From: Glandiceps talaboti
Taxonomy: Eukaryota > Hemichordata > Enteropneusta > Spengelidae
Direction: 5' to 3'
Assembly: GCF_964340395.1 (NCBI RefSeq)
Contig: NC_135570.1
Coordinates: forward strand, 3,362,498-3,426,497
DNA length: 64,000 bases
The notes under the pieces are model-generated. The model saw only the letters and a list, made by a program, of their open reading frames with translations, searched no databases and was not told the DNA's origin. Below are positions 3,248 through 64,000 of this stretch, piece by piece (positions within the stretch are counted from its first letter, which is position 1; the number at the start of each line of letters is the position of its first letter). The position numbers and the translations under genes were made by a program.

Positions 3248-3595
3248 TTATTATTATCATAATGTACAAAGAACTACATGTAATTATGAGATGGACAAGG
3301 GTGAACGGAAATGAAAAAAAATATTAAAATTAAGCAAGAAATAACGAAATAAACAAAGACGTCAAAATGACGGAAAAAGAACAAAATGAATAAAGGTGTT
3401 GAAATAAACACTGCATTTACGAAATGATAAGTAAATTGATTAGTAGGGCACATAGATGTTACAGCCTAAAGGGTAAACGTAAGAAATGAACAAATTATAG
3501 AAATATATTGAACAAAGAATTAAGAAATGACCAATGCAAAGATGCTTAAATAAACGAAATTATGAAATAAGTACTACACAAATCACCAAAACCAC

Positions 3596-3682
3596 CATCA
3601 TCGTTTATATCACCATTATCACCAGCACCATCATTATCATTATTATTATTACCACCATCACCAACACCACCACAACCACTAC

Positions 3683-3741
<59 letters not shown>

Positions 3742-3914
3742 CCACCACCACCACCACCACCACCACCACCACCACCACCACCACCACCACCACCACCACC
3801 ACCACTATCATCATTGTTATCATTACCATCATCGTCGTCATCATCATCACCACCACCAAAACCACAACCACTATCATCATTGTTATCATTACCATCGTCA
3901 TCATCTTATCATCG

Positions 3915-3953
<39 letters not shown>

Positions 3954-3992
3954 CCACCACCACCATCACCACCACCACCACCAACAACACCA
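3596..3992. repeat. Long trinucleotide microsatellite (ATC/ACC)n
   Basis: Almost 400 bp of CAT, CAC and related triplets in blocks, with a pure (ACC)n core near 3740-3805 and (ATC)n on both sides. Frames across it would encode homopolymers of Ile, Thr, Ser, His, Val or Met, depending on frame. These are rejected as coding. Confidence 0.95.
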
Positions 3993-4565
3993 TGTAATTA
4001 TCATCATTGACATCATGATAATTTTTATATCGTCTTGACTAATAAATTGTTTCAGTTCTAATAATTAGTTTTGTTATCTGTATGCTAATCACTGATGGTA
4101 CTATGTGTATACTAACTTGATGTCCATTTGTAAACAGTATAAATAAACTGTTTGGACCATTGTTTGTCAACACATTGTAAATTTCTGATTTGCATAGATT
4201 TTGATCACTGGGTAATCATACATGTATCAACAGCAACAACATAATAAGAAAAAAGAAAAAGAAAAAAGACCATGATGAAGAAAAATTAGGAACAACGCTT
4301 TCAAATTTGTAACCCTAACACATAACATGACATAACTAATTCAGTATTATGTAAATCTATTTAGCAAAGGATATTACAAAGTAGATTTCTCACCTTATAG
4401 ATTCAATATGACACATCATCATCAATCATTGGACTGCTTCACAGTTTACTATTATGGCTCTCACAGTCTTCCATCACTGAGTCAAATTTGACCAAGCAAA
4501 GAACCAAATTCTTGATTGTCTTCACCTATTCACCACTACCTTCCATTACTCACATATACACATTA

Positions 4566-6612: not shown

Positions 6613-9607
6613 TCAGGCCATTTCTTCATCCTGGTGAGGATCACTGAATTGAATAGACAAATGGTGTTTACATTCTTCTATGGCATTATGTGTCACTTCA
6701 TTCAATGGATTGTACTTCAGATTCAACATTTTCAGCTTCCCCCTCTGTAGCAATATTGCCATATTGATGCCTGTTTCAAAAAATAAACGAAACTTATTCT
6801 TAATATTGTTCTCTTCTAAGAAAAACAAATTATCAAAGTCTTTAAAAATACCACCACAGGCAGGAATTGTGGAAATTAGTTTCACTACTAAATGAATACA
6901 AAACAGCTTGAATTGAAGACTATCTTTGACAAATTTCACATCTCAGTAGGCTTTTTCAAGAAGTTTGAAGGAAATTAGTATCACGCACTTTACAGTATTA
7001 GATAGCTTTACTGCTAAATTAAGAAATGAATGAAACAACCTTGAGATTTCAGACAATTCCTACCTGCAGACAAAAAGACAATTTGCCAATATTTGGACAT
7101 AAATATCCAGTTATAATATGTATACCAATGATGATATTAAAAGACATCACCTACTTACTTTCTATTTGATTATTTTCTACATTTAGATCTTCCAGACTTG
7201 ATAAACTATAGATGACCTCAGGGAAGACGGAAAATGCATTGCTAGACAGATCTAGGATAGATAGGTTTGTCATGGCAACCATTGTGGCTGGAAGACTAGA
7301 TAAACAGTTACTAGCCATGTTGAAAACTGTGAAGGGAATAGACAGAGAATATTTGTTTTTTTGGTAAAATGATTTAAGAGGTACTTGTAATGATAACCAT
7401 GCATTCAAACTGTTCGGAGATTTCAGTTTTCGTCATGTGACATGATGAATGTAAAGGAATTGAACTATAAGAATATAATCAGATATTACTACCCAATATT
7501 TTTGTTCTGTATGTGCATTGTACATCCTGACTATTAGACTGTATATTATAGGTTATGTATGTGCATACAGTATTTAAATAAAACATATTTCAGAATTTTT
7601 TTTTAGGAATACAACACAATATAGTCTGCGCCTGAATACAAACTAGTGAAAAGGTACAGCTGCTTTGGCTTCACAGTACTAGTGTGTTTGATTACATTTC
7701 TTATTACCAGAACTATCACACTGCAGCAGTACGTATCACTTTAGTGTAATCTTTACAACTTACCTTTTATTTGGGGAAATTTCTGTCCAATTTTTGCAGG
7801 TATTCTTTTAAGCACATTCTTTGAGAAGTCGCAGGTCTCTGGTTTAGTTTCACTGAAGAAGAAAAAGACTGCATCTGGTATTGCTTTCAGAGAACAGCTT
7901 GATAGATCTGTAACAGGTAGAAATATATAACACACAGAGCAATCACATAATGAGAAGACAGTGTATATACTTAGAGTTTATATTGTTCATGGTTCCAAGA
8001 ATCAATAGAACAGTAAAACATAGTTAATTGATACAGTAAATTAGAAAAATGTGATGTTTTGATTTGTCTAGATTCAGGGAGCTCTAGACAAGTTTGTAGT
8101 ATAAAAAATTTCAATTGTACTAAATGTTGTACTGTCAGCTTTGCTATTTTCCATTCTCCCTTTAATCTTTTACCTAAGATTGTAAAATATTTCTTCTTTT
8201 TCAATGCTGTAACAAATGAGTAATAAATAAATAATAATAAATGCTAAAATAGAATTAAAAAGGTTTTAATTTTACTCATTTGGCAATTTTGAGCACTTTT
8301 ACAATCAGTTAGTACACCTGGTGGTGGAAGTCCCTGGATGGGTGGGTACCCATGCTTGTTAGCGAAATTTCAATGAAAAGCAACCCCTTTTGTTAGTGAA
8401 TCTGGGAGAATATCACTGCCAACACCCCCCCCCCCCATTTCCAAAACCAGGGAGGTTTTACCTTCAAGGACACCTAATCCATACACTGCACCATAAACGG
8501 TTTGCCCAAATGTTAGGGTGATCTGAAAAAACACCCCCTTTTCAGTGAAATTTCTAACAAGCATGCATACCCGCTTCGTCTGGGATGGCCAGCAGCACCA
8601 GAGTAGTACACAAGTACACGACTATTTCATATATACTGAACCTTTTAATTTGCTGTGATACTTTCCTGTCACATTACTGGAAGTGTTGGACACATTAATA
8701 TTATCAACACTAATTCAATGGTCACCTCACTGTGGTTTGTTTGACCCAGGTCATTAATTTTTAACAACATTTTATTTTCAACTAACTTTTGAAACTTTTT
8801 GAAACTCATAATGGAATCATCAGAAAATGTTTTATTTTTTGTCAAGGTATTCTTATAACAACAAATAGCATTTAAATGCATAATTAATTACTCTGCAATT
8901 ATTCAGTTCTTGAGAAAATTTACATGCATATTAAGTCATTTGTGGATTTCACATAAAAGAAGTCACCCTGACATCAGAAACATTAAAAAACTTAAATATC
9001 ATAGGATATATATGATTATGTGATATCTTGAAACATGTCTGACAATGGTGATCAAGAAATACAAAATCTAAATAATCCTATTTTGACATTTAGCATATTG
9101 AGCTTACTGAAATTATTCATACATCCATAATAAACTATTAATATGTATAAATTTACATGTGAATGTTATATTTCATCAAGCTGCTAGGTAATGTGTTGCA
9201 TTTCCTACAGCATATATATTTCAATACAACTTACAAGAAATGAAATTTCAAATTCTATATTTTGGAATATTATGAAACATATATTTACTAATTTGTTTTA
9301 GCACCAAAATCCAATGAAGAAATGTAGTTACATATGCAATAAAGATTCTATTCTATTCTAATGTAGCTAGTTAGAAGAACTTTGTTCCTTGTTAACTCCT
9401 AGTCCAAGAAAGGTGACAAGTAAATCATTGACTGAGTTGCGAGTATTTAGTTTCCGTTCTCTTCGTACCAAAGAAAGAATCTTTCCGATGAGTTTGCTCT
9501 CCAGGGAATTTCAGTGTGTATTGGTCTAAATGCCTACCTAATAATCTCGTAGTTTGTGCTTCTCGACACCTATTCGCAACTTCTGCCACCTCCTGGGCGG
9601 CTGACAT
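6613..9607 (-). CDS. LRRC20: Leucine-rich repeat-containing protein 20 (LRRC20-like), 4 coding exons
   Basis: Minus-strand exons join in phase with GT-AG borders: 9607-9538, 7907-7764, 7326-7159 and 6770-6613. The product is 179 aa, close to the roughly 184 aa of human LRRC20. An N-terminal helix-like segment (MSAAQEVAEVANRCREAQ) precedes leucine-rich repeats. Recognisable repeat cores are LDLSSCSLKAIPDAV, NCLSSLPATMVAMTNLSILDLSSNAF, VFPEVIYSLSSLEDLNVENNQIE and LKMLNLKYNPLN, followed by an acidic C-terminus ending DPHQDEEMA. The start ATG at 9607-9605 is chosen because it opens the only frame continuing into exon 2 and gives the expected length. LRRC20 is a small intracellular LRR protein of poorly known function; LRRs usually mediate protein binding. 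It lies head-to-head with 4E-BP. Intron 1 (7908-9537) carries two foldback repeats and a dispersed repeat. The LRR assignment is strong; the LRRC20 orthology rests on length, exon layout and neighbours. Confidence 0.85.
7981..8140. mobile_element. Foldback repeat in LRRC20 intron 1
   Basis: A self-complementary element: TTGTCTAGA near 8064 pairs with TCTAGACAA near 8082, and outer blocks such as ACAGTA-AACAT pair with the complement near 8125-8135. Its left half matches 62300-62400: ATTGTT, GTTCCAAGA-TCAATAG, ACAGTA and TGTGATGTTTTGAT occur in the same order. It is therefore a second, diverged copy of the foldback at 62.3 kb. Confidence 0.7.
8335..8590. mobile_element. Foldback repeat with about 55-bp terminal arms in LRRC20 intron 1
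   Basis: The left end contains CATGCTTGTTAG, then AAATTTCAATGAAAAG. The right end contains the reverse complement, CTTTTCAGTGAAATTTCTAACAAGCATG, in a mirrored layout. The interior includes a C homopolymer near 8406. No coding content was seen in it. This fits a MITE-like element. Confidence 0.7.
9302..9362 (+). repeat. Dispersed repeat, copy 2
   Basis: Shares CCAATGAAGAAATGTAGTT and TGCAATAAAGATTCTATTCTATTCTA with 4590-4660, in the same order. It lies in LRRC20 intron 1, on the strand opposite to transcription. Confidence 0.7.
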
Positions 9608-10095
9608 CCTCGGGTTGGTCTTGTAATGTACGAAAATTGAAAGCCCTGTTTTCAAGTAGAGAGGAGTTATTACACTTTCACTCGGTTCGGATCATATCCG
9701 AGTATGAATGCCCTTGTAAGTTGTAATGTAAGCGCTACGTGCGAAGCCCTTCTCTCCTCGCTGCAATGACTCAAGGGCTTCTCGTTCGCTAGACTGAAAT
9801 TACACTGCGAAATACCCAAGCCCGAATTCCTATACAAACCGCTAACATTGCCAACTTTTCGTCGGTCGATTGTGTCGTGATGTCACTTCACTCCGAGTCA
9901 AAAGTTTAAAGGTTAAATATTTCGGCTATGTTCGGCTTCTTCCGGTTAGCTTCGACGTAAACTCGTGACACGACGGTGGAATGGTGTAACATCTTGGAGG
10001 CTGTGTTTGCGTAGCTTTTCACAATTTTCCCCAGGTTTCATGACGGTTTTCTCTGGTTACTTGTCTTAAATTCAGCCTAAGGTTTTATTTTAAGT
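9608..10095. promoter_or_regulatory. Shared divergent promoter region of LRRC20 and 4E-BP
   Basis: 488 bp separate the two start codons, which face away from each other. The stretch is richer in CpG and G+C than the surrounding AT-rich DNA and shows no obvious TATA box, which fits a CpG-type bidirectional promoter. A 9-bp inverted pair (GAAGCCCTT/AAGGGCTTC) lies around 9744-9782. A short upstream reading frame of nine codons (ATG at 10040, TAA at 10067-10069) precedes the 4E-BP start and may or may not be in the mRNA. Confidence 0.6.
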
Positions 10096-13000
10096 ATGTC
10101 ACAGCAAGCTGCACCGCCCAAGCTCACTACGAGCCGTCAAATTCCGACTCGGAAGGTGATTTTGAACGACCCATCGCAAATGCCCAATGATTATAGCTCA
10201 ACGCCAGGAGGGACCATTTTTTCAACCACGCCAGGAGGTGAGTGCATCCATACATGTTTCTTATTCATCACTAGTTCTCGGCGATGTAAGACATATAAGT
10301 ACATGAAATCCAATTTAGTGGAATTTGATATAATTTCGAGTTTCTGTCAGCGAAGAAATAAGGATCCCCAGGTGTTTGATAAGTACGGAAACACAGATAA
10401 ACAGGACGTTACGCACACATTGTAACGACGTTTTTCTCATGGTGCGACATTAGGCCTTCGTTTCTCGACACACTATTGCCTTCTCGAGGCTTTCATGTAT
10501 GTCTAAGCGAAGATTTTAATACTTAGGTTATTTCTGATTAAAAACTAAAAGTAATAATTAACATTTCCCAGTATTTCGGTAGTTTTTAGAACATATGTTA
10601 TATCCAAGTTGATCAAAACACGATACAATGTCGTATGTGTGCACGATCACGTCATAGTCGATACCACGTGACTTTGTTTTGATGTGATCATCACACCATT
10701 TTGTCCTTGTGGGGGTTTCCCAAATCACTCGACAGTTAGATTTACGGATGACTTATAACGTGAATATTGGTTTAGTTTTCTCTTATTAACACCAAGATGA
10801 GAGGAAAATCATTTAAAATATTATGAAATTCTCTATTGATGCTTTTTTCATGAAAACGATGGATGTTTAGTGCAGCTGACAACATATACCCATTCTGTGC
10901 ACAGTACAGTTGTGTTTATTTGTCAGTGTTACACAGTTAATATGTCTGTTTGGGAGACACAGACAGTCAGTGTGTGTTATAGAGGTCACTGGTTTGGTGT
11001 TTGCTTAGTGACTTTGTTCAGTTTTATAGTTGAATTTGACTTGTTTGTACTGCGTAGTCAACTTGACATCCTGTTTGAAATAAAAGGAGAATGTTAGCTT
11101 TAAATATGAATTTATGCAGAATATCATACCAATTTTATCTTTGTTTCACTGAAATGTGGAAAATGAAAATGTTGGTTTGAGTTTGTTTCTAAACATGATA
11201 AAATTACTGAGGAACTTGCTGACCTTTGACCTTGGCAATTGTCCAAGTTCTTGCATCAGTTTTTCTAGTCAACAGTTCCCAATGTCCTAATTTGTGCAAT
11301 CAATATGTAAACAATAACAAATCTAAGCTCAGTTAAACAAGCTGAAAAGGAACGCTTCTAAGAAAGTCCCAATATTCTAAATGCAAGTATCTACATTTTG
11401 TATGGCCAGAGTCAAAGGGGGGGGGGGGGGGGTCCCCAAAATTCTTCAAGAATCATGGGTTCCCAATACTCTAAATGCAAGCATCTACCTCTGGAGTTAT
11501 GAGTGGGTCTCACCTTGGAAAGTGATTGGGTGTGTGTCTTACAAGGAAAAGGCGCAATATTAATACTAATAACAATAACAAATACTAGTAACTGTAGTAT
11601 TACCCATTTTCAGACAGGATTCAAGCCAATCTTTTACAACTCATACTACATGAACTAAGTTCATTTATTGAGCTTGTGTGACATTGTGCGATCGTCCCTT
11701 ATGCTATATTTGTTTTCTAATAGGCACTCGCATTATTTACGAACGTAAATTCTTGATGCAAATGAGGAATTCACCACTTGCACGGACTCCACCCAAGAAT
11801 TTGCCAGTTATTCCAGGTGTTACTAGTCCAATAGAAAACACTAAGAAAGTTCAACAAAAATCGAAGAATAACGCTAATCATGAAAACAGTGATAAAGATA
11901 AGCCAATATTGGGTAAGTATAATGGTTATTGGATTTAGCCAAGTAGGTAATGCAGATTGGTGTTGAGAAACTGATGTATGTGTTTGGGGGACTTCAGTTT
12001 GTTTTTACAATGTAGTATTATATGCTGTTATTTATGTTAGGCTATGCAAATTGCATCATATATTGAATGTAGAAAGGGTATGCTAATGAGGTCAAACAGG
12101 GTCGCTCTAGCTTAAGAGAATTGAAAAGTTATGTTTTTATGTCAATTCACACATTATGAAATCCTTCATTTGTCTACCATGAAAGTAAGCAATCAAGATA
12201 TACCTAACAATAGTTTATAATATTCCCTGATGGTAATGTCTTCATATTGAGAATCCAAGTTTTTGAAGCATGGCCAAGTGCCATGAAATACAATAAAAGT
12301 ATTCACTACATGTTTTCAAAGCACATCATCTAAAAAGCAAGTTTCAAATTGCTATAATGCTAATATTAAAACACAAGTCTCAAATTAATGAGACAAAACA
12401 TTAACTCTGGTATCTGGGAAAATGTCAGAGATGAAACATTTATGACTAACAATATTTTGAGGTCATATAGCAAAATCTAATCAAGTGAAGTTGTGTACTG
12501 TCCACTGTGTTTGTTTCTGTGTTAGCATGCAATTCTGCATGAACAAAAATGTTTTGTTCCAATGTTAACCTCTTATTTTCCTGTATATTTTATAAGTAAT
12601 TTGTTTTGTGAACTGCCCCCCCCCCCCTCTTTTTTTCCATCCAGAAGTAACGTTAAAGAGTTCCATATTTGAGTGGAGCTATGATCTTTGCTGTAGACAA
12701 AATGTTTGCTTGTACAGAGTATGTTTTTGGTGGAGTTATGATCTTTGCTGTAGACAAAACGTTTGCTTATACAGAGTATGTTTTTGGTGTACAGATATAT
12801 GTCTTTCAAATTTTCACCAAGTTGTAATTATTTCATAAACATGAATCCTGTGACTTGCCACCCTTTGATCAGCCGAGAATGGTTGTGAAGCAGATTATAA
12901 TGAATAAATAAATAAATAAATAGAGATTTATATAGCACCAAGTATCCATCAAGTGATGTTCACTGGTGCTTACAATTGATACTGTCATAAGTAGGCTCTC

Positions 13001-13764
13001 TCAAATAGGTATGTCTTTAGTCTTAATTTGAAAGTCACAATACTCAGTGCAGACTGGCTAGTGTTTGGTAGTGTTTAATGTATAATGCATGGAGTTTATT
13101 CAAAATTTATAAACACAGTCAGTCTGTGATATCTCCAAATGCAGAGAGGTACACTGTAAATATTTATAGTGGTGTAGACATTGTTTTTGACAAGGTTTGA
13201 GGAAAGATAGGGAAACCTTGTCAAAGTCCAAGAGATTTCTGTAATATTTACCATAGCCAGCTTGATAAAAATAATGTGGAACATAGGTCAGTTTTATGTA
13301 CTTACCAGCTCAGCTGTAATAAAACGTTTGTAGAAATCAAATTGTACCTGTACAGCTGTATGAAACAAAGTGAAATACAGTTTACTAAATATACTACATG
13401 TACATATACAAAATGAATGTATTATGCAGGTGAATAGGAACAAAGAAATTGCAGCTTTGTATTGCATCAGTATACACATACTTGGTTTAATCCTAGCTGT
13501 CAACATGAAACATCAGGTCTTCTTAAGAGATGTGAAGTCATGGGTGATGTTTGCAGATATGTGACTTTGAATACATGTACATTTGTATATGTGGCCATTA
13601 ACGTTTATACTTTTGTTATGCATGCACAAGTTACACATTGCATTTCACAAGTTCTGTAATGCAAAGTATGTGCATACTAACATAATGAAGCTATCAACAG
13701 TTTGATTTTCTTTCATGTTGCTTCTACAGAACTTGATGAGCCACAGTTCCAGATGGATATTTAA
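10096..13764 (+). CDS. EIF4EBP: Eukaryotic translation initiation factor 4E-binding protein (4E-BP), 3 coding exons
   Basis: Exons 10096-10237, 11724-11912 and 13730-13764 join in phase 1 at both junctions, giving 121 aa; vertebrate 4E-BPs are about 100-120 aa. 4E-BP is a cytoplasmic repressor of cap-dependent translation: unphosphorylated it competes with eIF4G for eIF4E, and mTORC1 phosphorylation releases it. All diagnostic motifs are visible. They are a RAIP-like RQIP at residues 14-17, priming sites STPGGT and TTPGGT (Thr36 and Thr45), the eIF4E-binding motif YERKFLM at 53-59, RNSPLARTP with Ser64 and Thr69, PVIPGVTSP, and a C-terminal TOS-like motif FQMDI at 117-121. The canonical TOS is FEMDI, so Glu is replaced by Gln. 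The gene is divergent from LRRC20 and tandem with ANKHD1 downstream. An AATAAA at 16343-16348 is one candidate polyadenylation signal, giving a long 3' UTR. Confidence 0.96.
12673..12786. repeat. 57-bp tandem duplication in 4E-BP intron 2
   Basis: Two adjacent copies of a 57-bp unit containing ATGATCTTTGCTGTAGACAA and CAGAGTATGTTTTTG, differing at only a few positions. Confidence 0.85.
12905..13080 (+). repeat. SINE-like dispersed element with (AATA)n
   Basis: Short (AATA)n followed by GAGATTTATATAGCACCAAGT and then GGTGCTTACAATTG. The arrangement resembles the 'TTATATAGCGCC ... GCGCTTTACAA' retroelement tails common in animal genomes and resembles the block at 33655-33710. Family assignment is by recall only. 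Confidence 0.4.
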
Positions 13765-15506
13765 AAGTTCAACTTGGAAATCCTCAACACTTACATTAGA
13801 CAGTGCAGCACGATGGATATAGCTGGTGTTTACTTATGATGACTTGAGGTGCAATAGAAGTTCAAACGGTGGTCATCATACATTAGGGACGTTGATGTGA
13901 ATTGGAGTTTCATACAGTGATCAAAGAGTGACTTGACATACGACTCACATTTTCAAGATATGTCAAACAAAAGGCAAGACAGAAGTTTTTGTGATGTTTG
14001 CATCATTATTTCATAATGTGTGTTTAGAAGTGTTGTCAGGGTGATGACAGAAGACAAACCAGGGAAAATTTACACTTGGGAGGATGTAAAGATTAAATCA
14101 AGTTTATTTAATTTTTTTAGATAATTAATCATGTTTTATCCACAGGGTATGTAGAGTGATTATTCCTATCATGACTTAATTGTGTTTACAGATTGATTAC
14201 CAAATGACTGTCTACAATAAGAGATGTAGATAGTATCAGAGTAACTTTAATTAGTACCAGGCTTCTCCCCAGGCCTTTCTAATATAGTTGGTTTCACACT
14301 GAGATTTCCTTATACGATATAAGTTAATTAGCATAACAGTATATTCCTTTTGTCATGTAAATTCATACTGTTCTGTGTGTGGTTTCTGGGGAGAACACTG
14401 ACTAGTACTCAGGTTGGTTCTTGCTAAATGTTGCTGGTGTCAAAACTGGAGGTTAGGCTCAGCTCCTTTGTTCTGTCTAGTTTATGATAAGGTTGAAAAA
14501 AGTTGTCGTGTAAGCGATTGCTTTTTAAGTTGAGGTCAGTGATTTGAACTTTGGGTACTAGTGAGACTTGACAGAAAAATATATGATATGTAGGACTAGT
14601 TAAGTAGTTGATCTTATCATGCTGCGAAAAAAGAGCTAGCCAGTGCAATTTGGTTGTTTATATACTCCTATATCATGTAAGACGTTATATCAATATAGAA
14701 GTAGGTAAAAACAGTAAACCTGGCCAAGGATGCCTTTTAGTATCCAGTTTTTTCCAACAACTGATTTACTGAGGACAGTTCCAGAGTCCGAGATTCTTCT
14801 TTAACCATGACTTGACTTCAGGGAAGCCCTTGAGTTCTCTTGGGCTAGCAGTGGATTTATTCTACTATATTTAGACAACAAAACAAAAAATAGACATATG
14901 GATAGCAAGAGCTAACCTGACAACTAGACTTTTGTTTAAAGTAATATAGATATATTTACATACAAAATTTCTTAGATCTTCCATCACAAGTGTTGCCCTA
15001 TTTGGAATTCACAAATATCAGGATTATCTCATTCTATTCTCTGTAGATAAAATACCAGTTATTTTGTCAAACTGGCCCGTAATTTATTTTCCCGTGAAGA
15101 ACCAATGACGCCATTGTTTTTAAGAGTTTTTTTTCTTAAAATATTTCTTATTACATATTTTTGAAATGGATTTTGAAACATGTTTTGTGTTATAGTGTAT
15201 GTAATTTTCTTCTGAGCAACCTGTGGTTGACACATGATTTGCCACTTGGGTCACTTTATGAAACTTCTATGTAATTCAATAACTCATGATGTGATGGAGA
15301 GTCATCCCATTGAAAGGCAGTTTTTCTTTTCACTGTATTTATGCTTTATTTTGTAAACCAGCCATTCCATGTATGTAGATAACATGTTCAAACTCTGTTC
15401 TGGCCAAAAGTAGAGAATGCTGCATTAAACATAGGTTCTTCATATGGTTTATTATAACTAATGTATTCACTATGCACTTATGAATGTACACAAATTGTGT
15501 GATATC

Positions 15507-15517
<11 letters not shown>

Positions 15518-15564
<47 letters not shown>
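15518..15564. repeat. (AC)n microsatellite
   Basis: About 47 bp of AC dinucleotides preceded by CATACATACATAC. Confidence 0.95.
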
Positions 15565-15567
<3 letters not shown>

Positions 15568-15867
15568 ACATAATGTGGTAAACCACCTTGCAGTCTTTTG
15601 TGAAAGTAACATTGTACAAGGATGAGTGAAAATGAAGATTAATCTTTTCACCATGGATACCAATAGCATGGAATTACAAGGAGTGGACAGTGACGTGTAT
15701 AAGTTCCTTATAAGTTCCTAATCTTACACCATTAACCTGATAAAGCCTATATCCCATATATAGGGTATAATTAGAAAGATATCCCGAAACCAAGTCACTA
15801 AAGGGTGAAATAAAAAGATTGAAGATGTAGTTAAATTAACAGAATTAACGCCATTGACATTTACCAT

Positions 15868-15951
15868 GAAACTTATGGATATCGTGTTCGAAGTTGAAAC
15901 TTAGAGATATGGTGTTCAAAGTTGAAACTTAGGGATATGGTGTTCAAAGTA
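15868..15951. repeat. 28-bp tandem repeat, three copies
   Basis: Three successive units of the form GAAACTTAGRGATATGGTGT followed by TCAAAGTT, with a few substitutions in the first copy. Confidence 0.85.
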
Positions 15952-17891
15952 CATGTGTGCTACAGTACTGAACAGTAGTTCTACCCATCCTGTCAGAATA
16001 CCACTTTCTAAGATCACCCCTAGTGGCCAGACTGCACAATCTTTTATTTTTACAATTATCAGACTATGACATGTAAAATCCAAATGGACTGTGTATATGT
16101 ATACCCACACAGATATGTTTATAGTTGTGAAATGAAGTATATATCAATTCATGAAATGTGGTGTTTCCGGTTTTGTAGATATAATGGTCACTCAATGGAA
16201 ATGTGGCATTTCTGGATTTTCGGCAATTCCGTTTTCTGACCGTCATGTAAACAGAACTGGAAATGCCACCCTTTCATGCACTTGTGATGCCATTTTCATA
16301 TGAAATCAGGGTACACTTCAGAATCTTTGCATATGAAAATTTAATAAAGTCAACAGTCAACACACTAGACTGACTGGTCAAAGACATGTGTCAACTAGTT
16401 GGCACTTCGCACTCTTCACACTATATAAGTGTGACAGCAAATTTCCAGAGCTGACAGAGACAGGCTTGCCAAGTACAACATGAACTTATTTGTCAAAACA
16501 TGTCCAGTATTTTAAATCAGTGGATATATATGTGAACCTGTAAATTATTGGTTATTGAAATTATATGCATGTGAATGTCTAAGAAGATACATGTATGTTA
16601 TTTTCTGTTAGTGTAACATTATTTGATCAAAACTACCTACTGGAAGGACAAGAATTAATGATTGTTGTTTTCATTTTTAGATAGTGCATGTTGACTGTCG
16701 GTAGTTGATTTTGTACACTAAGTTTAATTTTACCTGATGTCTTGGACACTAAAGATGTATGTAAAAAAAGAGAAAATGATTGAAGATTTTAATAAGTTTT
16801 CTTTGAATAGTGAAAGGTTTGCATACTAATTAGCTTATTTGCATACTCATTGTTTGTAGGGGAGGGGGGGGGGGGAGTTGCATCATTGAATGATTGTTGT
16901 GAATTCTCTATGTCCTGACAGAACATCGCTGACATAAACCACTGTTAAAATATAATTTTGTAAATAGTGTGGTGATTTTTTTATCTGCTTGAAGTCAGAA
17001 GTATGGAGATTTGAAGTTATAGAAGGGATTTATGTTATTTGCATAAAAATGCACATCTTAATACTTGAATCATGCATTGGTGTTAGGGGTCACACTAACT
17101 TCAGTTGACAATCCAAAATCAATATTCCTCTTGTTGATACAAAGTTGTGGATAAGCACTTGTACCAAACCCTGTACATCAACTATTTTCTAAATTAGGAT
17201 CATTGAAAGTGTATACGTTTCATAACCCCCAAAGGAAAGTAGTCATGTCCCTCATTTTATACAAATATTCAAGAGAAATGCAAGGAAAGTGCATCTTTAT
17301 CCAGGAACACATAGTGTACCAAATGAAAGATAAACTTGTTTGTTGACAGCCTTTGTCAATTTATTCCTATGAACTTAATACAAACGGATTTAATAGAGAT
17401 GTTTTTTTTCCGGTTCATCAAAAAGGTGGATTAATTGTGAACACATTATTTCACAATACATCATATCGTTTGCCAGATGTAACAGTAATCCCCTAGTCAA
17501 AAATACCATTTCACTTTGCACTGAGAAATATTTTAGCGTTATAACCCAAAAGTGGATATTTTTGTTGCCGAAAAGTTTTCATATATAAATTCACTTCAAG
17601 AGCAGAGTGTGAATGGATGTACATACCTCACGATACGGAAAAAAAGTTTACAACTATCACTGGCCAGTTTCACATATTAGAAATGTTTTTTTTTTTAAGA
17701 ATTATTTTATAATGAGGAATTGGACACTTTTCCTGCATGAGGAATCAGAATACAATAATTGATTTAAGGATGTAGTGACACTTTAAAGTTTGTTCTAGCA
17801 AACATTTTTTGAGAACTTCTTTTTAACACAAATTGTAAAATTGAGCTATGGATGTCATAGGAGTGGTATTTTAATATTCTTTGTCACTAGT

Positions 17892-17991
17892 AGACTGTAA
17901 GATACGTCGTGACGTTTCGCCCTCACTGGCCTCCCATGTTAGGGGTTGGCTGATGTTTGAGGGCGCCCCGTCACGGCGTACCTTACAGACT
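17892..17991. mobile_element. GC-rich palindromic MITE, copy 1, with 11-bp target-site duplication
   Basis: A 100-bp imperfect palindrome starts AGACTGTAAGATACGTCGTG and ends with the near-complement CACGGCGTACCTTACAGACT. Internal CGCCCTC and GAGGGCG blocks also pair. It is flanked by TTGTCACTAGT (17881-17891) and ATGTCACTAGT (17992-18002), an 11-bp direct repeat with one mismatch. It is much more GC-rich than its surroundings. Confidence 0.92.
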
Positions 17992-20900
17992 ATGTCACTA
18001 GTTGCACGGTGCATATAGCCTACAATGACTTGTTCTGAAATGTGTTCAGAATAAATACTTCATATGCATCGTAACATGTTGATAACACAATAGTAATAAT
18101 CTACAGTATTACAGCATTTGTATTTATGGAATAGGGAACTTGCAAACCCGCCATGTTGAATGTTGCATCATGGGAAATGTGATAATATATACTAATCAAT
18201 TAGCATTGTAAACAATGATATTGTAACATTGTTTGTAACCAGGAATGATCAATTCATAGTCACCCTGGTCTGTGTGGGAGGTTAATTTTATCAGTAGCTC
18301 CAGATTAGGTATTACGATAACCACAGATAATCCCATAGTCCTTTGCGTCTGAGCATGCCCAGTTTGGATTGCAAGTTCCCTATTGTTACCTTGATGAGGA
18401 TAAAGCATTGATTCATATGTTCAAAATAAACAGAGTCATCATTGCAGGTGCTCTCCCACTGTTGTCACTTACACCAGCTTTGTTGAGTGCCCTCAATGAC
18501 CAATCTTTCAGGCTCGTGTTCAAAATAACTGGCACTTACTGTTTTTCTGATCTATAAATGCAACCATGTAAGATTTGTCACTTGCATTCCACAATGCTGT
18601 CAAGTACATAGAAGCCGGAGCATCCACAATTATGACTCGCAGTCAACTGGGTGGTATTACATAGCTAACATAAGAAAGTTGATAAGATGTGCCCATAAGC
18701 GCAGACGATAATTAGGAGTGATGTATGACAAAAAAAACTTTGTAAGACTCAGGATCACTCCATTCTAACCAGTACTGTAACTGTTCATGCTAATACTCAG
18801 AATTTTTGTGAACATTTTGTAGTGAATGTCGGGGAAAATTAGATTTGTAATTATCCTATTCTGTTACTTACATTCACACCTCTGTGTTTAAGTCTAAAAT
18901 TTAAGCCAAAGTACATTGTTGTCAGAATAGTGACAATATTGAATATTTCTGTAGATTTGGCAGATAAATAGTACTTATATAACTACCATTGCATCTCTTG
19001 TTAGAGTTTTGTGTACTCTGGCCCACACTTGGACTACATATGATTGACACATTTTGCATACTGAAGTCCACAGGGGGAAACATGTATGTGTATGTGTAGT
19101 TGTAACAGTGGAATTCACTACTGTTGAAACCATAATGTGATGTTAGATGTTTTAATCTGGAGCAATACTGGGGTCAAGGCTGTCAGCTATTGTGAAAGCC
19201 AGTCAATACCCAGTGTATCTTGACCCTGGTTTGACCTTGGCTGTACTAAACTGGGGTTAAAGTGGGGTCATGACAGTGGGGTTTGTGTGAAGGCCAGCTA
19301 ATACCTGATCATGAAGTGTGGTGGTGATACAAACATTTTGAATGTGTCATAAGAAGCAGATTTTATGTGTGCGAGCAAAGACATTTTCAATCACCTGCTG
19401 TACAGAAAGAGTTCTCCAGAATGTAGTGAACTCAAGATAAGAGGTGCAATGATAGTAGTTAGTACTATTACCTTGTTAGTTGGTGCTATGTACATCTGTA
19501 TGCTGTCACATGACAAGCGTTCCAATTGTAATGATCATATTGATATCATGTATGTTACAGTTGACTCTTAAATTGGTTAAATAGAAATATGACCAATATT
19601 GAATTGATTTATTGTGTTTGATTGTAAGATTCCTTTGTTGCTTTCACATCTATACAATTGTTTGTGGAATGATGATGAAAACGCCAAGCTCATTGTTATG
19701 TACCATATCATACTTATTAATTGTGCATGTAACTCCTATACCTCTGGATTAGCTGGATTAGTCTAGTTTTATCTGTGGCACCAGATCTCAAGATCTCTCT
19801 TTACATCTAACTCAGTGAGAAAATTTTTAATTCAACCAGTCATTAACATCATATCTTTGACCACAGAATTCTGCCCATTGATAGGTTGATATTTATTGGG
19901 GGCAGTGACAGTAATGTGATTATCCAAATATGGTATTGTTGTCAGCTCAGGATGCTACTTATACACTGTTGACATTATTCTGACAGTCAAGGTTTACTCA
20001 TTTGCATGAATAAATTTTGGTTTGTAATTTCTCATTGAGCTAGACACGGTGAAGAGATGATGCAATACCACGGATAGATCTAGACTATGACTGGATGATT
20101 GACCAGGCAAGCATTCTCTCCACACAGCCTACCACAAAGACCACGCGACTCAAGATTTCTTGAAGTAATATACATGTCAGATTTATGAGTGAAATGGTAC
20201 ATTTTTGAACTTCAAAGTTGAATGCATACAAAGCATGATAACTTTTCAGTTATTCAACACAAATTTACATTTTCTGTCATGTGAAAATTTTTTAAGATTC
20301 GAGATGTAAAATGACTTTGATTTAAGAAAAATCCTAGAAAAAAAAAGAATAAGTTCCAGCTGTGTATGTTGCTACAAATGTATGTACAAGTTAGGGAACT
20401 AAAAATATTTTAACATCTTTATGTCAGTTGATTACTGAAGTCTGTCTCTCACAGTAGCTTTGTTTATAACTAACATTGTAGGTCTTAATTGAAGGTTAGA
20501 GAACTGTTAGTAGAAAGGAACTTATTTTCTATTTTTAATGCTTGATAGAGAAAGATGCTGCTGTCATGGTAACACTAAGAAAGTATGGGATGTTTCTCCA
20601 TCTTCAGGTTCGGGTGCTGAGAAGAAATATCATAATGATGCTGCTTCTATACAAAATAAAAGTGTTTCAAAGATGTTATTCCAGTGATCTTAATTAAAAC
20701 GTGCCTGGAAGAAAGATATTTTCCTCACAAACATGAAATATCATGGGTCCCCTTTCATGCCTTCAACGTATGTTAAACTCAAAGCATTATACAAATGTAT
20801 GGGAAGTTTTGTTGAACTGAGATCAATACATTGATTGATTATATTGCCTTTTTTATTTCATTGAACATTCATGTACATGTATGTGAATGAAAGGAAAACT

Positions 20901-23088
20901 GCCTCTGGGTTTCGGTAGCTAGTTTCAGGAGCTGAGTTGATACATACAGCTTTAGTTATTTGTGAAGTCAGACATTATTTTAAACATACATGCGGTGTTG
21001 GTGAAATCTGGAGCTTATGGAAGCTGGGTTTACAATTGAAGGGATCAACTCTAGAAAAAATGTATATTATTTACTAAAAACATCCAGTTTGTGAAGGTGC
21101 ATTTCCAAGTGTGTGGGAAGTGAATATGCAACAAACCGTGCCACAGTTTGGTAACATCTGTGATTTTTGGTCAAAGCTTGTAAGTTTACCATAACCAGTT
21201 CTGATGTATACCACACTATCTGCTTGACTCTGGAGTGTGACATTTACAGGCAAAATGTCCATATTTGTTTTAAAAAATAGTGAATCTTCTTCAGATGTGA
21301 AGCTATTTTGTTACAATAGTGGTCATACTCTTGACCAAAAACTGGTAAATTTTGTAAAGACCTGAAGAAAACTTGTTAATCATGGTGAACATTTTGAAAA
21401 TTCAGATTGTGATCAAACTTTTCACCAAATTGTAGAAAATTATATTCTGACAAATTATTAAGAAATTTTAGAAAAATCAAAGATAGCCCTCAAACTATAA
21501 TCAGACCATTCGCTGAACTCTACGATATTGACTAGGTAAACAAATCAACCAATGTATTGATTCTCGTCATGTGTTTATCAGTAAGCATGATCTACACTTC
21601 CTGGCTTTGTTAGTTTCAACTGAGATATTATGAAATACATGTATCAAGAGAAGAGAACTGTCATCATTATGAGAAAAAAAACCCAATGTTGTATGTCTCA
21701 TTATTTTGTGTGCAAGACAGTGAATGATAATGTGATCAACTTATTACATCCCATAAACACCAAAGGTCAAAGATCATACATGGTCAAAGATAAAATGTTA
21801 TGTGCACTCTGATCAACAAAAGTTATTATAATATATATATTGTGTGTGTATATAATGTTGTAGACTCTAGATAGAGGTGTATAAGAATTCATATTGAAGT
21901 GAAATCAATGTTACATGCTGTTTATCAAATGGGCCCGATGTCCAAATTTCATAAATTGTACAGGCCTGTTGCTATAACTCCCACTCCATTACAGTAGTAT
22001 CCCCATATTACTATACGACTTGCTGTGGACCATTTCATCAAACAGTTTGAGACCATGTACATACACAGACAGACTTAATCCACAATATGCCAGTATAAGT
22101 CGCAAAAGATACATGTAATGTTTATTGGGCTGGCAAGTAAATAAACATGCTGAAAATGTATGCAAATCAGCCCTAGCAACAAGAGCACACCCATAATTAG
22201 GATTGTCTACATAGCAACAGTAAAGTGATGGCATGTATATTTCTTTGGTAACAACACGGATGGATCAGTATGATATTTTCATGTGTTGTCCTAACGACTT
22301 ATTTTGTTACTGGTCAATAACAGGTCAGTGGCAGTGTCAATGAAGTTAGGTGGATACTACACATTTTAAGGTATACAATGTAGTTGACATATAAACTGTC
22401 CAGTTGTGTTACAATATCATTGGAGCTGTTTTTGGTTTACCCATAGACCCTCCACCAATGGTTTACCAGTAGACGTATATATGCAATGCAAATATGAATA
22501 ATACAAGAAATGTGATAGTTCGATATTGATCTTCCAGCTGTCCTGCAATTAGTCATGTTTTGACACTTCTAATGCGACTTACTATTGTCATCAAGACGAA
22601 AGTTATTCATAAAATGTAAATATTATTCTAAGTGATGACACTCGGCACAGCTGAGGCAAGTAAGAAGGTGTCTGTGGCACAGCTGAGAGTTCACCATGAC
22701 CTTGAGAGTTATATCAAAACTGTGCTGCCATAATAGAAATAAACTTGTCAAAAGTTATGAATTTTATAAAACACCTCTCTGATGTCCGTGACAACATGCT
22801 CGCACTTACTGACACCTAGTTGTAGGGCCCGCATGGCCAGAAGTAGTTATAAAGTAATTTGAACTAAAAGGAGTATATAAGTGGGAATTTCAACTAAAGG
22901 GAAATTAAGTGTAAACATTTTGCGAAAGTATCCTCAAAATATAGTGGAGGCCTGTTGTAAGCTTAGCATAGGGGCCCGTAGTATTTCTTAGATTGCTTTT
23001 CTTGTCTACAGGCCAAATATAACAACGTTTTGTCTTGAATATATTTCCGCTACCTTCATGGAATGAACATATATTCCAGTATAGAGTT

Positions 23089-23192
23089 AGACTGTAAGAT
23101 ACGTCGTGACGTTTCGCCCTCACCGGCCTCCTCTCACACTAGGGGTTGGCCAATGTGTGAGGGCGCCCCGTCACGGCGTACCGTAACAGACT
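23089..23192. mobile_element. GC-rich palindromic MITE, copy 2, with perfect 11-bp target-site duplication
   Basis: The 104-bp element shares the same termini and about 85-90% of its bases by eye with the copy at 17892. It is flanked by a perfect 11-bp direct repeat, AGTATAGAGTT, at 23078-23088 and 23193-23203. The perfect duplication implies a fairly recent insertion. Confidence 0.95.
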
Positions 23193-25017
23193 AGTATAGA
23201 GTTTATATTGATACATTTGTAGGAGCAGGAGTCCTGTGATATTTTCTTAAGAAAACAATCTAAGCAATAATACGTGTCCCTGTGGGCGAAATAGCTATAA
23301 GGGTAGAATATTATGATTCATAAACATATTTTGATTTCAAAATGTTGGGGCAAATAAAAACGATGAAGTTCAGAGCAGGTGATAGCGTCAGTGCGAATAT
23401 CAAATCATCTAGATCACTTGTAAACAGTTGAACTAAAAAAAGGAGCAGAAAACTGTAATTTATTAGTGATCATGGAATATGTTACGATACTTAGGAACTT
23501 CTAGAGATATGAATTGACGGAGAGAACATATCGGGTACATCGCGGTAAGTTAACGTTGATAATGATAAGATAAGAATTTTGCTTTCATCCGTTTTGCCCA
23601 AAATGCAATAGTAGGCCCTACAGTATAATTCCAACTCGATCGAAAAGCACAGTAAGTTTCCGGCCTATTTTTGGGTCGGAAAATATGTTACCATTATCGT
23701 AAGAGGCCCGGTGGCCAAGAAGTTTTACCGGACAATGTTGTCTTATAATTGCAAAAGTTTCAAGTTTGTTGATGAGGTTGATCAGCAGTTCATATATTTG
23801 CATCGTCAACCTAAAAACGACAACTCGAACACATTAGTTTTACATTTTAAACGTAAATTAATCGCAACATTGTTATTTTCCACGTTGTGAACAACTAACA
23901 GTTAATTCGGTAAATTTCACTGCTACATAATGTGGCGGGGTGTGGTAGCGTCAGCGGGTGGGATGTGGTAGCTGTAGGATTTGGAACTGGTGACAGCGGG
24001 TGGGATCATGCCAAAATTACAAAATAATGAAAACTTATATTTAAAAAAATGAGTCAAAGTAAAATGTGACCCTATTTTTTTCTTAAATAAAGCCCTCCCC
24101 AAGGACGGATTTGTGAACAGTGACCCCCCCCCCCTCATTCCCGCCCCTTATAACGACTACCATTACGTCCACCGTACGACACATACTACGGTTGATCTCC
24201 AGTATCATTGTCGTGTTTGCCATTTGCTCCTATTCTTCCATAGATGAGCTTGAGTGTCATTTTCTCTGATATGTATAGGCTTATAAATCAACTTAGTAAT
24301 ATATTTTGTGTGCTAACACCATATTGTCGCCGGCGGAATAATGACAACATATAACCACATAGCCCGACAGATGAAATGTGTCATTGATACATGTGTGAGA
24401 GACGTTTATGAAAATAAACTACTTGCATAAATATGTATTTCTTCAAATCATGGAAGTACCACCCACATACTTTTATTTCCAAATCTACTTGGAGTGTTCC
24501 ACCTATATAATTATGGTTATTTTTCCCCGAGCCCAGGAAGGCAAGAATTTATCCTGGCTGTAGTGCATAGCATCATGGAAGTATAATCGAAACTTGCAGG
24601 TAACCCTGTTTCACTTATAAGTCAAGATCCCGTGGTAAGACGCATTTATGAAATATGTGGCTGTTTGTCTTGATTTGCCCCTAGGCCACAACTTACTTGT
24701 ATCATGGATCTATCTCTGACAGTTTATAGATTCATACATATACTGTATCTGCTATAAATCTGTACATATGCATTCAACTATATGCTACCCTACTCGACGA
24801 ATGGATACTTTAGCCATTTTATAATCCCACGTGTCATCATTTCACGCAAACCTACCAATAAATTAAAACAAAAGAAAAGAGAAAGGCATATGAAAACGCC
24901 ACATGGCAGTTTAAATACATAGTAACGTTTGGCCACGTTATCACAGACGAAAAAGAGACTTAAAATGCTGTGCGCAAAACAAACTGCGCAGTCTATGACA
25001 TCCGGGCATTCATCAAC

Positions 25018-25080
25018 ATGGCGGGTGGACTGATAGGTATACGAAGTGGAAATATTGAACAGATACGAGCAAAATTATAG
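25018..25080 (+). other. Upstream reading frame with strong start context before ANKHD1
   Basis: CATCAACATGGCGGG has an excellent Kozak context and opens a 20-codon frame (MAGGLIGIRSGNIEQIRAKL) ending in TAG at 25078-25080. The frame carrying the ANKHD1 exon 1 is different and is open from 25037. Either this is an upstream ORF, or a one-base indel in the sequence separates the true start from the rest of the exon. Confidence 0.45.
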
Positions 25081-25132
25081 TTTTCCTGGCCCCGAAGAAC
25101 ACTATATTACATGGGAGAAAGACATTGAGAAA

Positions 25133-50538
<25,406 letters not shown>

Positions 50539-55276: not shown

Positions 55277-57131
55277 TTATGATGATTCTAATCCGTGGGG
55301 CGCCATCTCTTCAAGCTGATCTGCCAAAAAGTTCAAATTACATTTTCTTAATGTTGCTACCAGCATCTGCTTATTAGCTGCACTTCCCTGGTATTGCTTC
55401 CAAAGAAGTAATGCTTGCATCGACTGTTCTTTCAAATCTCTGACATAGTCATGAGAAATGGAATCAATATCTGTTTCACTTAAACGAAATCTTCTTGCTA
55501 ATGACCTCCAATCCCGTCCAAGGTGGTTACGAAGAAATTCAAACTCATCCGTCAAATCTATAAAAGAAAATTGACATACAACTGCTGACATCAGACCATG
55601 GACATATGAAACCTGTTACAAACAGGGGAAATAAACAGATGATTTGGATAAATAACACTTGGCTCATTTGCATATCATTTGCATGCAGGTATGCCATAAT
55701 ATTTTCGGTATTACACTACAGTGCAAATTACCACTAATATGCATACACCAGTCCAGGTAATCACTGGTACATAAACTGTATGTAATAATGGTACATGTAT
55801 AGTTCACACAAAAAATTAGCAATGTTGATAAGATTATTTTGTTACACCAGTTGATGAAAAGAAGCAGTTAGACTTCGTACATTTGTTTCTACTCAGCTGA
55901 TTTTGTTTGTAAACTTACCGGGTCCTTGCTCTTGTGCTATTACACCTGGTGAAGACAAAAATAGAACAAAAAAAAATCCCAGATTATTGAAACATCTTAT
56001 TTGAGTAAAGGCAAAAATAAAAGCATTGTATTACATTTCTATAGTTAATGACATAAAATATCAATATGAATTTGATACTGATAATGAGATAATATTATTG
56101 TAATCTATACATGTAACACTTAATAAATACAGATAAAGTACAAATACATAGTGTCATGACAAAGAAATATCATGTCATCATCACCAAAGGTTTTCCCATA
56201 AATCTTTGCTGTAAATGGCTGAACACATGTCAAGTACAGTAGAGCTTCTGTACAAAGATTTCAAAATTGTGTAAATTACAAGGTGTCATTTAACCAATTT
56301 ATATGTAACTTGATATTACATTGGAAGCAGTAATCAATACAAGTTGTACTAAAGGCAGAATAACACCAAATACATGCAAGTCAGACTGAACTTTTCCTTT
56401 AATTTAATCAATTTATAATATGCTTATACATGTTGTCCATTGTTTATATTCATTTGATCCAACCTAACAGCTGTAACCTACATTGTATTTCATCTTTATG
56501 TATGTATGTATGTATGTATGTATGTATGTATGTATGTATGTATGTATGTATGTATGTATGTATGTATGTATGTATGTATGTATGTATGTATGTATGTATG
56601 TATGTATGTATGTATGTATGTATGTGTGTGATTGAGAGTTGGTGTGGGCTTGGGTTCAAATATCACATACATCCTTCTGTATCACACCATCAAATGAAGC
56701 TAAGTTACATGTAGCGTAAGTGTAATGAATGCTTTGATACCTCTGTTCGGTCTTGACTGACTAACTCTGGTCATATTCACTGGTGCACTGCCTTGAACAT
56801 TAGTGTTCGGCCTAAGCCAAAGCTGTTCGTATTCTTCTATTATTCGTACAAGATCTTTTCTATTAATTTCACCAACACATTCCTTCAAAAATTCAGTATC
56901 GTCCACACTCAGTTTGTCAGCATACTCGATTTCCTCCAGTAGTTGTACGGTTGATGTAATTTTCTCTTTCCGGGCGCGAGAGATAAAATAACACATAAAC
57001 TTGATTTGCTCGACTTCGTCATTATTCTTCAGTTTCTGTACGATCTTCATGAGCATTTTTCGAAAGGAGGGTTCCCGAACTTCCGACGATTCAACGACCT
57101 CGGCGTCGCGGCTGACGCTATCACCACTCAT
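55277..57131 (-). CDS. FADD: FAS-associated death domain protein (FADD), 3 coding exons
   Basis: Minus-strand exons 57131-56741, 55945-55919 and 55557-55277 join in phase 1 at both junctions, giving 232 aa (human FADD: 208). FADD is the cytoplasmic adaptor that links death receptors, through its death domain, to caspase-8-type initiators through its death-effector domain. The N-terminal DED spans about residues 23-103 (FRKMLMKIVQKL... LLEEIEYADKL...) and has the charge-triad RxDL motif as RKDL at 91-94. The C-terminal death domain spans about 141-222: EFEFLRNHLGRDWRSLARRF, SETDIDSI, ALLLWKQYQG, LVATLRKCNLNFLADQL. No other common family has this DED-DD order and size. The ATG at 57131 is the first in the open frame and precedes a plausible disordered leader. 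The gene is head-to-head with SIRT1. The second exon, only 27 nt, encodes the domain linker. Confidence 0.92.
56497..56624. repeat. (ATGT)n microsatellite in FADD intron 1
   Basis: About 32 TATG tetramers. Frames across it would give MYVC or IHTY repeats and are not genes. Confidence 0.97.
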
Positions 57132-57836
57132 GTCGACAAACCTCGAGTCGAAACCGTGTTAGAATCAATACTTTGCTGTAACAATCTCAAGCGCAAGTCC
57201 TAAGCCCATATACAGTCCTTATCATATCTGGCACTACGGACAACGAAAATGCATTCGTGACGATCGGTAATTTCCCTGTTGGGTTTTTCAGTAAGTTTAC
57301 GAAGTAATCTCATGAACATGCAGGGAATTCCCTGAAATGGCCTCGTTCGTGTTCATGCTTATATGAACTTGTATTTCTATATGGAGTTTAAACAGACTCA
57401 ATGGAAATCGCTGAGAACGAGGGTGTATACTAGTTTTCATAGTCGTTTATAAAATCGCCAGTAATTTCACTATTATCGATTACTTATTGACTGGAAGTAC
57501 ACTCTTATTTCTGAAGCACATGAAGGCATATTTTTTACCCGGGATAGTTGTGAGATCAACCGACGCTGAATATGAACGAATGCACAGATCAAGAATGTCG
57601 CTGGGAGATAGAGTTGAAGTTTTTATTTGTAGTACCATTTTTCAAAAAGTATTTGCGAAAAATTTGACAACTTTTACAGGTTTTAATCGAAATTTTAAAA
57701 TGTAGCAATTGCTTAACAAAAATCATAGTTAAAACTATAATTTGAGTCTACATTTAGTTCTTTTATTTGATACTAATGAACGAATTTTATTGTATCGAAT
57801 GACTTTGATTAATCATCAACGAGCAGGAAGTTGAAC
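57132..57836. promoter_or_regulatory. Shared divergent promoter region of FADD and SIRT1
   Basis: 705 bp separate the two start codons. The FADD-proximal part (57060-57200) and the first 100 bp of SIRT1 are CpG-bearing compared with the flanks, while the middle is AT-rich. No clear TATA box was assigned. One or two separate promoters could fit in this space. Confidence 0.55.
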
Positions 57837-63800: not shown

Positions 63801-64000
63801 CAAAACGTATTAGCTTTACTTAAGTAAACTTTACTCGAGTTCTCCAGGATTTTACATAGGTTCACCACCAAAATTATGGTACAGCGAGTCAAAGGTATGG
63901 TACATGTGGTATAGAAATCTATGTAAGTGAAAAAGAGCTGTAAATTATGAAAGAAGACAGCAATAACTAAACTCATGGTGTAATTTTAAGTCTCCAAGTG

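Follow-up and report, generated by a model that had tools for sequence, protein, structure and literature searches.

A hemichordate 4E-BP gene between LRRC20 and ANKHD1: a plausible ancestral neighbourhood of human EIF4EBP2 and EIF4EBP3

Published counterparts of the locus

The human genes for 4E-BP, a brake on translation, differ in their gene neighbours. EIF4EBP2 is taken here to lie in divergent orientation to LRRC20 at 10q22.1, about 22 kb from it, with SIRT1 presumably close to both at 10q21.3, and EIF4EBP1 at 8p11 is assumed to have neither LRRC20 nor ANKHD1 as a neighbour. For the fly, we take mask and Thor to lie on different chromosomes, a placement at odds with one published statement given below. 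An initial annotation of the DNA studied here had already described human LRRC20 and EIF4EBP2 as divergent neighbours at 10q22; of this claim, the divergence stays an assumption on our side, while the adjacency is compatible with the literature. The available part of PMC5720705 names LRRC20, EIF4EBP2, NODAL and PALD1 under one 22-kb deletion at 10q22.1, and this joint listing fits the adjacency without proving it. In sheep, a set of 18 genes located no more than 100 kb from SNPs includes LRRC20 and EIF4EBP2, according to the corresponding excerpt of PMC5408376.

EIF4EBP3 belongs to a different neighbourhood. Its adjacency to ANKHD1 at 5q31, together with a read-through transcript of the two genes, was likewise part of the initial annotation and is borne out by the sections available of three sources: a table in PMC2764143 gives the human order ANKHD1(+), EIF4EBP3(+), SRA1(-), and the ANKHD1-EIF4EBP3 read-through at 5q31.3 is described in PMC6862657 and PMC10454556. 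The read-through is also mentioned in mouse tissues in an excerpt of PMC2953495. According to the accessible part of PMC2764143, EIF4EBP3 is missing next to ANKHD1 in the anole. Many teleosts carry two eIF4EBP3 genes according to an excerpt of PMC3797031; EIF4EBP3 therefore did not arise recently in mammals. Furthermore, a Mask-BP3 orthologue is said to exist in Drosophila in a passage of PMC10454556, which conflicts with the placement of the fly genes assumed above. Both 4E-BP2 and 4E-BP3 consist of three exons, as stated in the available part of PMC12644199.

Head-to-head gene pairs of the type discussed below are common in amphioxus, where bidirectional promoters were reported in 25% of neighbouring genes (3,950/15,884), and stem vertebrates lost 54.5% of 372 putatively ancestral bidirectional promoters; these figures come from the accessible sections of PMC6292497, whose main text names neither LRRC20 nor 4E-BP. 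The genes of the neighbourhood described here are not named in the main text of PMC8851819 either, and among the literature matches listed none concerned this synteny in invertebrates.

Gene content and order of the Glandiceps talaboti locus

The window, that is, the whole 64-kb stretch of DNA analysed, corresponds to C24:3362498-3426497 of a 590.4-Mb assembly in 47 contigs (C24 being 18.48 Mb long) and is free of N. Its exon structure and protein sequences appear to be those of an invertebrate. LRRC20 on the minus strand (9607-6613), 4E-BP on the plus strand (10096-13764) and ANKHD1 on the plus strand (exon 1 ending at 25321) were confirmed as consecutive genes, as the initial annotation had read them, with no recognised gene between them. 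The limits of the interval 6613-25321 that it had given coincide exactly with the stop of LRRC20 and the point where ANKHD1 exon 1 ends. Downstream of ANKHD1, the same window holds two more genes, first a FADD-like one on the minus strand, then SIRT1, which is on the plus strand. Orthologues could be assigned for the genes of the block, LRRC20 and ANKHD1 by comparison with assumed human sequences. No RNA families or tRNAs were found in the window at the settings used. The ORF translations also reveal long tracts of simple repeats, which are AG-rich (41231-41500, within an ANKHD1 intron), trinucleotide (3560-4000) and of two tetranucleotide kinds (1950-2200 and 56450-56660).

The LRRC20 orthologue (6613..9607, minus strand) is encoded by four coding exons, 9607-9538, 7907-7764, 7326-7159 and 6770-6613, which form the sole splice-consistent model and give a product of 179 aa with leucine-rich repeats recognised by Pfam. 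Against the assumed sequence of human LRRC20, the product scores 68.6 bits in one colinear stretch from residue 6 to 152. The best relative among PDB chains is SHOC2, which ranks first among the best 60 of 278 LRR chains, LRRC20 itself being absent from those 60. Identification of the gene as SHOC2 was rejected, given that the best single stretch is lower (47.9 bits) and that the gene in the window is complete at 179 aa. The score of SHOC2 summed over five stretches is, however, higher (122.6 bits), with the alignment also covering the N-terminal part of SHOC2, so that colinearity and size are what support the name LRRC20.

Arranged head to head, LRRC20 and 4E-BP have 488 bp between their start codons, within the distance of about 1 kb that we used, between start codons, to call a divergent pair. 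The gap (9608..10095), a putative bidirectional promoter, is CpG-rich. Its CpG observed/expected ratio is 1.24 and its GC content 0.44, compared with 0.60 and 0.36 for the N-free part of the 264-kb region and 0.37 and 0.36 for the window. When 4082 N-free windows of 488 bp were evaluated, the CpG ratio of the gap was higher than that of 96.3% of them and its GC content higher than that of 97.1%, and only 1/4082 was at least as high in both. The gap contains one ETS-like site (CCGGAAR/TTCCGG), as do 6-7% of the background windows, and no match to TATA, CCAAT, CRE, SP1, NRF1 or YY1 motifs. The close head-to-head spacing, combined with the high CpG and GC content of the gap, suggests that LRRC20 and 4E-BP likely share one bidirectional promoter; that it would fire in both directions is deduced from the gap and its composition.

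The 4E-BP gene (10096..13764, plus strand) is complete. Its three exons (10096-10237, 11724-11912 and 13730-13764) encode 121 aa ending in FQMDI, and the product matches the Pfam family eIF_4EBP with an E-value of 5.4e-47 and, as the best PDB match, human 4E-BP1 with 8.1e-33. The sequence YERKFLM fits what we take to be the eIF4E-binding motif, and FQMDI presumably represents the C-terminal TOS motif. In the whole assembly, the two eIF_4EBP matches found correspond to exons 1 and 2 of this gene, which is the only eIF_4EBP locus found there.

Between 4E-BP and ANKHD1 lies a gap of about 11 kb. Pfam matches were absent from the 18 ORFs scanned there out of 121 ORFs of at least 38 aa, and these 18 include all four gap ORFs above the coding-score threshold. 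The scores of these four, 7.6-11.3, fall in the same range as those of the true LRRC20 and 4E-BP exons, and therefore the coding score cannot exclude a small gene in the gap. A missed gene at this position was considered and not adopted: Pfam gave no match in those 18/121 ORFs, and the coding score is unable to decide.

The ANKHD1/MASK orthologue occupies 25133..50090 on the plus strand, with approximate ends, and was identified by alignment with the assumed sequence of human ANKHD1 and by Pfam. Exon 1 ends at 25321, exon 2 starts at 30277, the ankyrin exons extend from about 31.6 to 43.3 kb, the KH exon is located at about 46.0 kb (both by Pfam), and the last clear coding ORF spans 49881-50090. 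Over the N-terminal part, 512 of 649 aligned columns are identical with this human sequence. Intron 1 of ANKHD1 carries a coding-like minisatellite at 27052-27318, whose repeated units, each about 22 residues long, share a single open frame.

The locus lacks the MASK-BP3-type layout, in which ANKHD1 precedes 4E-BP in the same orientation, as 4E-BP is the upstream gene here. A simple in-frame read-through from 4E-BP into ANKHD1 was also considered and rejected. The introns of 4E-BP are of phase 1 and intron 1 of ANKHD1 is of phase 0, and consequently either exon 1 or exon 2 of 4E-BP spliced to exon 2 of ANKHD1 would be out of frame.

The FADD-like gene (55277..57158, minus strand; ORF limits rather than a spliced model) sits between ANKHD1 and SIRT1 and consists of a DED ORF (Pfam, E 5e-17) followed by a death-domain ORF (Death, E 1.3e-18). 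Human FADD is assumed to lie at 11q13. The SIRT1 orthologue begins with an ORF from 57813 on the plus strand, some 33 kb beyond the ANKHD1 start, and runs to the window end at 64000 and on to 65562, the continuation of about 1.6 kb being found in the flank. Among PDB chains, it scores 433 bits against human SIRT1 and 173 against SIRT2.

Genes recognised in the 100-kb flanks are carboxylesterases and a UGT on the upstream side and, on the downstream side, two SARDH/DMGDH-like genes, a cadherin and a GPCR fragment. For every one of these five kinds, Pfam confirmed a single exon, SARDH/DMGDH by the GCV_T_C domain only; two further ORFs gave no Pfam match, and the remaining ones were assessed by eye on the basis of the coding-score list. 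The flanks contain 12.6 kb of N (-60099..-60000, -57499..-55000, -4999..0 and 75001-80000 in window coordinates), the block at -4999..0 abutting the window start. Apart from SIRT1, none of the genes recognised there is known to us to neighbour human EIF4EBP2 or EIF4EBP3.

The upstream carboxylesterase-like ORFs form a tandem cluster from -95 to -72 kb, followed by the UDP-glucuronosyltransferase-like gene from -68 to -65 kb. The SARDH/DMGDH-like genes are inverted relative to each other (67803-73671 on the minus strand and 84382-94076 on the plus strand, window coordinates), and their ORF pieces 70900-71049 and 92002-92151 are identical in amino acids, which suggests a recent duplication or gene conversion. 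The cadherin-repeat gene (101559-107760, minus strand, window coordinates) is found some 37-44 kb past the downstream end of the window. Its use as a marker of 5q31 or 10q22 was dropped, its closest kin not being decidable by sequence.

Possible origins of the gene neighbourhood

We lean towards reading the window as a retained piece of an old neighbourhood that was shared out between human 10q and 5q31 after the genome duplications. The verified gene identities, the nearby SIRT1 and the divergent orientation of LRRC20 and 4E-BP, which we assume to be the same in human, speak for such a block. Against it stand the swapped order of 4E-BP and ANKHD1, the intervening FADD-like gene, the unmatched recognised genes of the flanks, the neighbours of EIF4EBP1 and the anole. 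The presence of SIRT1 in the same window, given its presumed human position at 10q21.3, favours one old block.

According to this reading, the divergent LRRC20/4E-BP pair would be ancient and would have stood on one CpG-rich bidirectional promoter, and the same pair may persist farther apart as LRRC20-EIF4EBP2 at human 10q22.1, as a disentangled bidirectional pair. In the common ancestor, this stretch would also have included ANKHD1 and, farther along, SIRT1. Following the two rounds of vertebrate genome duplication, LRRC20, 4E-BP and SIRT1 could have been kept in one copy, on 10q, and ANKHD1 and 4E-BP in another, at 5q31. The simplest account of the swap of ANKHD1 and 4E-BP in human would be a local tandem duplication with reciprocal loss, or a transposition. 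Since ANKHD1 lies on the other side of 4E-BP than in human, the case for this gene is weaker and requires one of these additional steps. The initial annotation had pointed out that the order is opposite to the human one, and rightly so, with 4E-BP upstream of ANKHD1 here and downstream of it in the table of PMC2764143; the adjacency is thus not conserved in order. In the excerpts available, the human papers support pairs, never the triple, and one of the pairs is in the other order.

These points determine how the neighbouring explanations are weighed. It is possible, but rather unlikely in our estimation, that only the LRRC20/4E-BP pair is ancestral and that ANKHD1 and 4E-BP, residing on the same ancestral chromosome, became adjacent independently here and on 5q31. 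The placement of ANKHD1 on opposite sides of 4E-BP would fit this explanation, as would the shared orientation of the LRRC20/4E-BP pair here and presumably in human, and the gap of 11 kb between 4E-BP and ANKHD1 compared with 488 bp within the LRRC20 pair. Two independent approaches within one ancestral chromosome would, however, be a coincidence, and the nearby SIRT1 favours a compact old block. A gathering by chance, or one specific to this lineage and without ancestral meaning, to which the human matches were fitted post hoc, appears improbable. The recognised flank genes beyond SIRT1, which find no match in the human neighbourhoods, and the order of 4E-BP and ANKHD1, unlike that in human, would fit such a gathering. 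Nevertheless, when 20,000-25,000 genes are assumed, any one gene has a chance of about 1 in 10,000 of standing next to 4E-BP, and this applies to each of two named neighbours, with SIRT1 coinciding in addition. Moreover, the human pairs are backed in print, as far as the accessible parts of PMC2764143 and PMC5720705 go.

The block might also have been kept together by regulation rather than by slow rearrangement, with enhancers in the introns of neighbouring genes or in the gaps between them (a genomic regulatory block). The stretch of about 11 kb without a recognised gene between 4E-BP and ANKHD1 would offer room for this. In 2012, Irimia reportedly proposed genomic regulatory blocks as a cause of deep microsynteny, in support of such a mechanism. 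The split of the block in human argues against it, and we consider it very improbable here.

Returning to the old neighbourhood, LRRC20/4E-BP can be regarded as an ancestral pair with more confidence than all three genes as an ancestral triple, the ANKHD1-4E-BP adjacency being the weaker part. An ancestral LRRC20-4E-BP-ANKHD1 triple is plausible and partly supported. A more comprehensive proposal, which we put forward tentatively and regard as doubtful in its entirety, is that the bilaterian ancestor had LRRC20, 4E-BP, ANKHD1 and SIRT1 together in a single compact block headed by the bidirectional LRRC20/4E-BP promoter, that human 10q21-22 and 5q31 are its complementary remains, and that only the vertebrate swap of ANKHD1 and 4E-BP enabled the MASK-BP3 fusion.

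If the neighbourhood is ancestral, it would provide a one-step account of why two human 4E-BP genes differ in their neighbours, give a polarity to the ANKHD1-EIF4EBP3 arrangement behind the human fusion transcript, and offer a simple, checkable case in which genome duplication in vertebrates was followed by complementary losses. The mode of action of 4E-BP would be unaffected by it.

Comparison with human and amphioxus arrangements

In comparison with human 5q31.3, where ANKHD1 and EIF4EBP3 are adjacent on one strand (PMC2764143, available part), ANKHD1 and 4E-BP are adjacent on one strand here as well, but ANKHD1 follows the 4E-BP gene instead of preceding it. The three-exon structure of the hemichordate 4E-BP is shared with 4E-BP2 and 4E-BP3, as far as the excerpt of PMC12644199 goes. 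Likewise, LRRC20 accompanies a 4E-BP gene both here and at human 10q22.1, where NODAL and PALD1 are listed with them (PMC5720705, excerpt).

Further points of this second comparison depend on our assumptions about the human locus. The pair is presumably divergent there too, but about 22 kb apart, compared with 488 bp between start codons here, and 10q22.1 is taken to be without a copy of ANKHD1, which here stands next to 4E-BP.

In these respects, the locus resembles the disentangled ancestral bidirectional promoters of PMC6292497, in its accessible sections, which are likewise close head to head in the invertebrate and farther apart in human, the human spacing of our pair being assumed. The frequency of bidirectional promoters in amphioxus and their loss in stem vertebrates make the proposed fate of the LRRC20/4E-BP pair an ordinary one, and the locus as a whole would be a good, though ordinary, illustration of gene order conserved over great evolutionary distance.
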